Shown: in pieces, positions 11,685 to 12,944 of the stretch
How positions within the stretch are numbered: position 1 is the stretch's first letter
How the letters are laid out: every line of letters starts with the position of its first letter
Assembly (NCBI GenBank): GCA_905235415.1
Contig: CAJOKX010000014.1
Span: 1-42,443 of the forward strand
Direction: 5' to 3'
Length of the DNA stretch: 42,443 nt
DNA from: an uncultured Lachnospiraceae bacterium
GTDB lineage: Bacteria > Bacillota > Clostridia > Lachnospirales > Lachnospiraceae
The notes under the pieces: generated by a model
Told to the model about the DNA's origin: nothing
What the model saw: the letters and a program-made list of their open reading frames with translations, nothing else
Databases searched by the model: none
Translations under genes and position numbers: made by a program

Positions 11685-12944
11685 ATGCAGAATACGCAGC
11701 AGCAAATGAAAAAGGTTCCGGCCAGGCGGCGGATCTTTGAGATCATCCAGATTGCAGGCGGCAAGGATCTGGCAAGCCGTGCCTTTGACCTTGCGATTAT
11801 CAGCCTGATTATTCTCTCGATTGTCGTGACGACGCTGGATACATTTACACTCAGGCCAGGCGCCCAGACTGCGGTTGATATCCTGGATGCAGTGTGCATG
11901 ATCCTGTTTACGGTGGAGTACCTGCTGCGTCTGTGGACGGCGGATCTGCTGTTTCCGGAGAAAGAGCATCCTTATCTGGGCTATGTGTTTTCTTGGTCTG
12001 CCATCATCGATCTGCTCTCGTTCCTTCCGTTCTATCTGGAGGGCATCGTGCCTCCCGGAATGGTCGTATTCAGGCTGATCAGGGTCGTCAGGATCCTCCG
12101 GCTGTTCAGGATCAATTATTACTCGGATCCGCTGACGGTCATCACGTCGGTCCTGAAGAGGAAGGCGTCGCAGATCCTGGCTTCCCTGTTTCTGGTCTTT
12201 ATGCTGATGCTGGCGGCCTCCCTGCTGATGTACTACGCGGAGCATGAGGCCCAGCCGGAAGTCTTTTCCAATGGATTCTCCGGCCTGTGGTGGGCGGTTT
12301 CCACCCTGTCGACGATCGGGTACGGGGATATCTATCCGGTGACATTCCTCGGTAAAGCGCTGGCGATTATCATCAGTCTTCTGGGAATGGGCGTGGTCGC
12401 GATCCCGACCGGTATTATTACGGCGGGCTTTATGGAAGTTGCCGGGGAGGGATCCCCGAAGGAAGTGAGCGAGTCGGCGGGAACGGGGCTCAGGATCCTG
12501 GATATCACAGGATGTGGGACGCATGTGAAAGCGCCCGCAGAATATGTGAGATGCGGCAATACGGTGGAGCAGCTTTCCCTGGACCGTCTGGTCGGCAGGT
12601 GCGTGGTGACGACACAAAAGGGCGTCCTCTCCCCGCAGCAGATCAGCGATATCATCAGTACCTCCTCCGGACAGGCAGAGAAGCGGATCCTTCTGCGCGG
12701 TGAATGCACGCTCAGCGCCGGTACGGCCACCTACATGTGTGAAATGGGCCTTATGGCTGTCGGGCTGCAGGGGGATGGGATCGAAGACGGAGATGCATGC
12801 AGGATCCTCGCCTCGCACGGGATCCCGGTTCTGGCGGGACTTGACCTTAACGCGGTTGAAGACGGTGAATATCTTCTCAGCGCCGCACCGGTCAGGATGA
12901 ACGGAAAAGGAAGCGCTCCCTGCAGGGCTGTGCTGATGGGGTAG
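11685..12944 (+). CDS. Six-TM voltage-gated-type ion channel with C-terminal cyclase/kynurenine-formamidase-like domain
   Basis: S4-like RLIRVVRILRLFRI and selectivity filter STIGYGDIYP. The C-terminus has CGTHVKAPAEY..GNTVEQLSLDRLVGR and ACRILASHGIPVLAGLDLNAVEDGEYLLSAAPVRMNGKGSAPCRAVL, resembling the putative cyclase family (PF04199). Confidence 0.85.
   Translation: MQNTQQQMKKVPARRRIFEIIQIAGGKDLASRAFDLAIISLIILSIVVTTLDTFTLRPGAQTAVDILDAVCMILFTVEYLLRLWTADLLFPEKEHPYLGYVFSWSAIIDLLSFLPFYLEGIVPPGMVVFRLIRVVRILRLFRINYYSDPLTVITSVLKRKASQILASLFLVFMLMLAASLLMYYAEHEAQPEVFSNGFSGLWWAVSTLSTIGYGDIYPVTFLGKALAIIISLLGMGVVAIPTGIITAGFMEVAGEGSPKEVSESAGTGLRILDITGCGTHVKAPAEYVRCGNTVEQLSLDRLVGRCVVTTQKGVLSPQQISDIISTSSGQAEKRILLRGECTLSAGTATYMCEMGLMAVGLQGDGIEDGDACRILASHGIPVLAGLDLNAVEDGEYLLSAAPVRMNGKGSAPCRAVLMG

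Follow-up and report, generated by a model that had tools for sequence, protein, structure and literature searches.

The gene at positions 11685–12944 of the window (the whole 42,443 nucleotide stretch of DNA analysed, from an uncultured Lachnospiraceae bacterium) encodes an ion channel that continues in the same frame into a tail resembling a kynurenine formamidase. This raises the questions of where the tail came from, whether it is still an enzyme, and what it may do for the channel. The features of the locus are as follows.

11685–12944, forward strand: complete fusion gene of a channel and a degenerate cyclase domain, 419 amino acids plus stop
11778–12440, forward strand: six-helix voltage-sensor/pore module (Ion_trans), residues 32–252, from PF00520, PF07885, Kv channels in the PDB and the S1–S6 helices of the model
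12441–12494, forward strand: linker, residues 253–270, of low confidence (low pLDDT)
12495–12941, forward strand: predicted degenerate domain of PF04199 / kynurenine-formamidase fold, residues 271–418, from sequence and predicted fold (residue 419 is 12939–12941)
12495–12539, forward strand: strand beta1 joined straight to the GTH strand (ILDITG/CGTHVKAPA), from the model and alignments with the relatives L023, L026 and L027

The open reading frame has a single ATG start and both parts share one frame. In the Pfam scan, residues 32–252 match PF00520 (6.7e-33, 114.3 bits, cut-off 25) and the module also matches PF07885 (6.4e-14). The nearest solved structures in a PDB sequence search are Kv channels (1e-26 to 1e-17). 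The selectivity filter reads TLSTIGYGD, which is the K+-type T-x-G-Y-G, and S4 (FRLIRVVRILRLFR) has an Arg at each third position (Arg130/133/136/139/142); the S4 Arg and the filter are conserved across the channel alignment. By its sequence, the channel part is a voltage-gated-type K+ channel. Helices S1–S6 are present in the full-length predicted model, which as a monomer is weak (pTM 0.42), such that the orientation of the domains is not readable from it. The linker has pLDDT below 50 at residues 254–268 of this model and at residues 1–16 of a model of the tail only.

The tail matches PF04199 at 2.8e-5 with the whole protein and at 3.1e-6 with the domain alone (27.9 bits against a cut-off of 23.1). 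Its top NCBIfam match is the arylformamidase TIGR03035 (2.9e-13), with 50.3 bits that do not reach the equivalog cut-off of 223.05. Sequence matches in the PDB include 8hmo (2e-13), 1r61 (3.3e-10) and 4cob (2.5e-7), and the solved relatives are 8hmo, a Mn-dependent hydrolase of Bacillus smithii, 1r61/3krv, and three KynB enzymes. The tail-only model, built from 12 aligned sequences, has a pLDDT of 85.5 and a pTM of 0.80. Foldseek with this model finds 3krv (4.7e-14), 8hmo (5e-14) and 4cob (1.8e-12), with a TM of 0.78 on query length. All 33 of its PDB matches at E ≤ 1e-3 read as PF04199-type proteins (KynB, isatin hydrolase and putative cyclases), counting 2b0a as such in accordance with PMC4243253. 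No RCK (TrkA_N/TrkA_C) or cNMP-binding domain was found after S6 of the window protein in the Pfam scan. The tail is thus predicted by several concordant methods to have the PF04199/KynB fold. This is the cyclase/formamidase fold proposed in the preliminary description, and both sequence stretches that it quoted are in place, letter for letter; the contrary outcomes, lack of such a fold or an assignment to RCK or CNBD, were looked for and did not occur.

In KynB, H50, H54, D56, H161 and E173 are the ligands of two zinc ions and H60 is the key histidine (PMC4243253). Only H54 of these six catalytic or metal residues is kept in the window; in KynB numbering, H50 falls in a gap and the others are D56K, H60E, H161C and E173A. 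Loss of the first His, the Asp and the last His of the motif had been claimed from the sequence and is borne out (His to Gly or gap, Asp to Lys, His to Glu), while H161 to Cys and E173 to Ala are two additional ligand losses absent from that account. Compared with the full-length domains of L023, L026 and L027, the window domain also lacks some 40-odd residues containing beta2–beta3, between beta1 and the GTH motif. Strands E20–22 and E24–31 adjoin in the tail model, matching the join of beta1 to the GTH strand. The exact breakpoints of the missing segment are not placeable, the DNA alignment there being too diverged. The KynB dimer is made by beta1, beta11 and beta12 together with an intersubunit sheet of beta2–beta3, and the start of beta3 adds to the active site of the partner (PMC4243253). 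Losing beta2–beta3 should therefore be enough in itself to inactivate the site, whatever the point changes. Judged by its active site, the window domain is not a kynurenine formamidase, and the window channel, lacking a complete site, is by sequence not a chanzyme.

The preliminary description had proposed looking for the same two-domain architecture elsewhere. Searches of the genus and of GTDB contigs place it in 12 genomes including the window's (L019–L028, L032 and the window), eight of them in the window's genus. These genomes appear to be rumen-type Lachnospiraceae or unplaced Clostridia, largely from rumen samples. With profile A3, no fused channel was found beyond the window's genus and G274 among 397 family, 392 order and 399 phylum genomes. 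Two further candidates, L154 (a 366 amino acid frame) and L157 (a 473 amino acid frame), were rejected since they are unrelated to channels. The L157 frame (G246) reads as TrmD and, after it, a PF04199-like protein containing HTGTHADAPSH, and is either a fusion or a read-through. At L012:1492–2490 there is a PF04199 cyclase with a complete motif fused to a GNAT acetyltransferase.

The fusions differ in the state of the enzyme domain. In three, the domain is full length and none of the six active-site residues is missing, which makes them candidate bacterial enzyme-channels.

L023:3600–4970: fusion with full-length domain, 6/6 active-site residues
L026:1678–3030: fusion with full-length domain, 6/6 active-site residues
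L027:4759–6132: fusion with full-length domain, 6/6 active-site residues

The other nine are degenerate, with one of the six residues in the window, two in L022 and none in the remaining seven. All 19 standalone homologues aligned have the complete set. Three further channels of the same clade have short tails in which no PF04199-like sequence is visible by eye.

L029:5248–6276: clade channel without cyclase domain
L030:2963–3928: clade channel without cyclase domain
L031:5911–6933: clade channel without cyclase domain

Short 'DLTG...VP' stretches in the tails of L030 and L031 might be what is left of the first strand of the domain; for 'DLTGGQNVNVP' of L030 this is guesswork. Most unfused channels outside the clade have TrkA_C-like or short CPYCG tails, with TrkA_C confirmed by the Pfam scan after S6 in L034 and L037, at the position of the fused domain. 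The CPYCG-type tails (L033, L044, L049, L054, L055, L091 and others) are possibly half of a zinc-binding ribbon. A related channel at L097:5875–7263 carries an HD-domain-like tail at the same position (PF13328 at 4.4e-6, marginally below the curated cut-off).

In the channel tree, the 15 clade members (12 fused and L029–L031) lie on one side of a branch with 100/100 support, and the domain tree separates the fused domains from the standalone ones with support of 98. The degenerate L022 is sister to the intact L026 in both trees (92 in the domain tree, 100/100 in the channel tree). The deeper branch order is unstable, differing between the trees. A single origin of degeneration, constrained as one clade of the degenerate and domain-less members excluding L026, is rejected by the AU test at p = 5.5e-6, a value that is somewhat optimistic because the constrained group was picked after the first tree. 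A site and a segment that have gone are unlikely to come back, so these sequences are most simply explained by one fusion with an intact enzyme followed by at least two inactivations. The preliminary description called the domain catalytically dead. By sequence this holds for the window, with one residue of six, but not as the original state of the fusion, as the intact L023, L026 and L027 make the dead state a derived one that was reached at least twice. Because relatives with complete active sites share the fusion, the stepwise loss of catalysis is traceable in a bacterial ion channel.

Pairwise dN/dS was calculated by NG86 for the domain and channel parts separately. In the intact pair L023/L027, the two parts are equal (domain dN 0.210, channel dN 0.220, ratio 0.95). 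In 13 pairs with a degenerate member, the domain dN is 1.6–6.4 times that of the channel: approximately 2.1–2.8 in the window group (L019–L021 and the window), 1.6 for L022/L026 and 1.9–2.5 for full-length pairs of the L024 group. The top ratios, 4.0–6.4, all involve L032, where the channel part is just 116 codons. Where dS is finite, omega of the degenerate domains is 0.10–0.35, indicating purifying selection, these values being rough because dS is near saturation in many pairs. Active-site segments are less conserved in the degenerate members, from 0.61 to 0.37 for the motif loop and from 0.60 to 0.26 for the former H161 loop. Strands E52–59 (0.72) and E83–92 (0.64) stay conserved in them, as do the strands equated with KynB beta11 and beta12 (0.66 and 0.73), an equation made by chain order and not by superposition. 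The core and presumed interface strands are about as conserved in degenerate members as in their active relatives, which for the interface strands is no more than suggestive of a KynB-like homodimer. Taken with the omega values and the raised dN, this indicates that the domain is constrained, though less than before. The raised dN fits relaxed constraint as well as it fits a new function.

The neighbours of the window gene are PPDK and relA (both read from the sequence), HPr, tRNA-Arg and apt, and those in the relatives are CLC, Mrp-type antiporter, ZIP or HypF genes. A conserved operon is ruled out by this variation between subclades. Ion-transport genes adjoin some of the channels: CLC in L020 (L020:7388–8656), Mrp-type antiporter genes in L022 (L022:581–5940) and ZIP in L026 (L026:873–1655). 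The preliminary description had put forward kynurenine-like compounds as ligands for a test. A tail sensing kynurenine or another tryptophan catabolite would agree with TIGR03035 being the best NCBIfam match, yet this match is far under the equivalog level and the metal ligands are lost. No tryptophan genes are present among the inspected neighbours of the window and its relatives. Nor was a tryptophan dioxygenase found in the five genomes searched, including those of the window and of the intact L023, which makes kynurenine or tryptophan an unlikely ligand, even with import from the rumen possible. Such a sensor is considered very improbable.

Other explanations for the tail carry different weight. 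Chance resemblance or an assembly chimera is ruled out, its probability being practically negligible, by the identical in-frame junction in 12 different assemblies and by the concurrence of sequence and fold searches. It is more conceivable that the tail is vestigial, with no positive function since catalysis was lost, kept folded to spare the channel and heading for loss. L029–L031 lie inside the clade and lack the domain, so the channel can do without it. Together with the raised substitution rate of the domain in pairs with degenerate members (1.6–6 times the channel, against 0.95 in L023/L027), these three species make partial decay a serious rival. However, frame and fold are maintained in nine species across near-saturated synonymous distances, and the low omega and the conserved strands are those of a domain under selection; a purely vestigial tail is therefore regarded as somewhat unlikely.

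The old substrate pocket, free of metal, might instead bind a small metabolite and so control gating, much as ADP-ribose acts through NUDT9-H of human TRPM2. The analogy is strong (PMC6461439, PMC5671594), and relatives of the window channel have the regulatory TrkA_C at the same place. Against this, the segments of the old pocket diverge most among degenerate members, the former H161 loop among them, and the beta2–beta3 segment that would add to the pocket of the partner is missing. A ligand sensor of this type would be improbable.

The reading preferred here, and on balance just probable, is that an enzyme-channel fusion turned, in analogy with TRPM2, into a pseudoenzyme tail which is kept for subunit pairing, assembly or gating. 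The ancestor of the tail would be a binuclear-metal hydrolase of kynurenine-formamidase/PF04199 type, fused once behind S6 where many related channels have the TrkA_C regulatory domain, and the early fusion would still have had its active site complete. The metal site has since gone, and beta2–beta3 with it, both in the genus of the window and independently in the L022 lineage, so that beta1 now joins beta4. The remnant would be the barrel core plus the strands that correspond to the KynB dimer interface. Its present role may be that of a non-catalytic cytosolic domain pairing subunits under the pore, influencing assembly or gating, possibly with some ligand. The data show the fusion, its predicted fold, the missing catalytic residues, one clade of fusions, inactivation at least twice and continuing purifying selection; we infer the pairing, the effect on gating and any ligand. 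A more tentative proposal, possible rather than probable, is that L023, L026 and L027 are enzyme-channels, each pairing a voltage-gated-type K+ channel with a binuclear-metal hydrolase whose substrate is a cytosolic metabolite, that the window and L022 lineages separately made of it a pseudoenzyme gating domain, and that the system is a prokaryotic, convergent counterpart of TRPM2.

To our knowledge, channels with enzyme-derived domains are few, the best known being the animal TRPM channels. The preliminary description was aware of no channel of the present type, and none was found in the open-access papers that were searched. One small bacterial clade here has intact-site fusions, ruined-site fusions and domain-less channels together. 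This lets the purpose of the fusion, whether catalysis, ligand binding or assembly, be asked in proteins of about 420–470 residues.

The KynB/PF04199 hydrolases (4cob, 4co9, 4cog, 8hmo and 1r61/3krv) share with the window domain the predicted fold, the strand order and the C-terminal '..G.Y.l.a.P......aP.RAvL'; the window domain differs in being fused behind a channel, in lacking beta2–beta3 and in having lost five of the six catalytic or metal residues. The eukaryotic Kv channels (Kv4, Kv2 and KCNQ in the PDB) have the same voltage-sensor/pore module and T-x-GYG filter but different cytosolic domains. Bacterial Ion_trans channels whose C-terminus holds one TrkA_C domain or two (L034, L037 and others) have a homologous module and the same attachment point after S6. 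The window channel has a PF04199 domain there instead, and the tails share no match in Pfam scans. The NUDT9-H domain of TRPM2 is reported to work as a hydrolase in some lineages but to have no activity in humans (PMC6461439, PMC5671594, PMC11479946). TRPM2 is thus likewise a cation channel with a hydrolase-derived C-terminal domain whose enzyme site is kept or lost depending on the relative, whereas the window channel is bacterial, belongs to an unrelated subfamily and has a tail of an unrelated enzyme fold that is not homologous to NUDT9-H.
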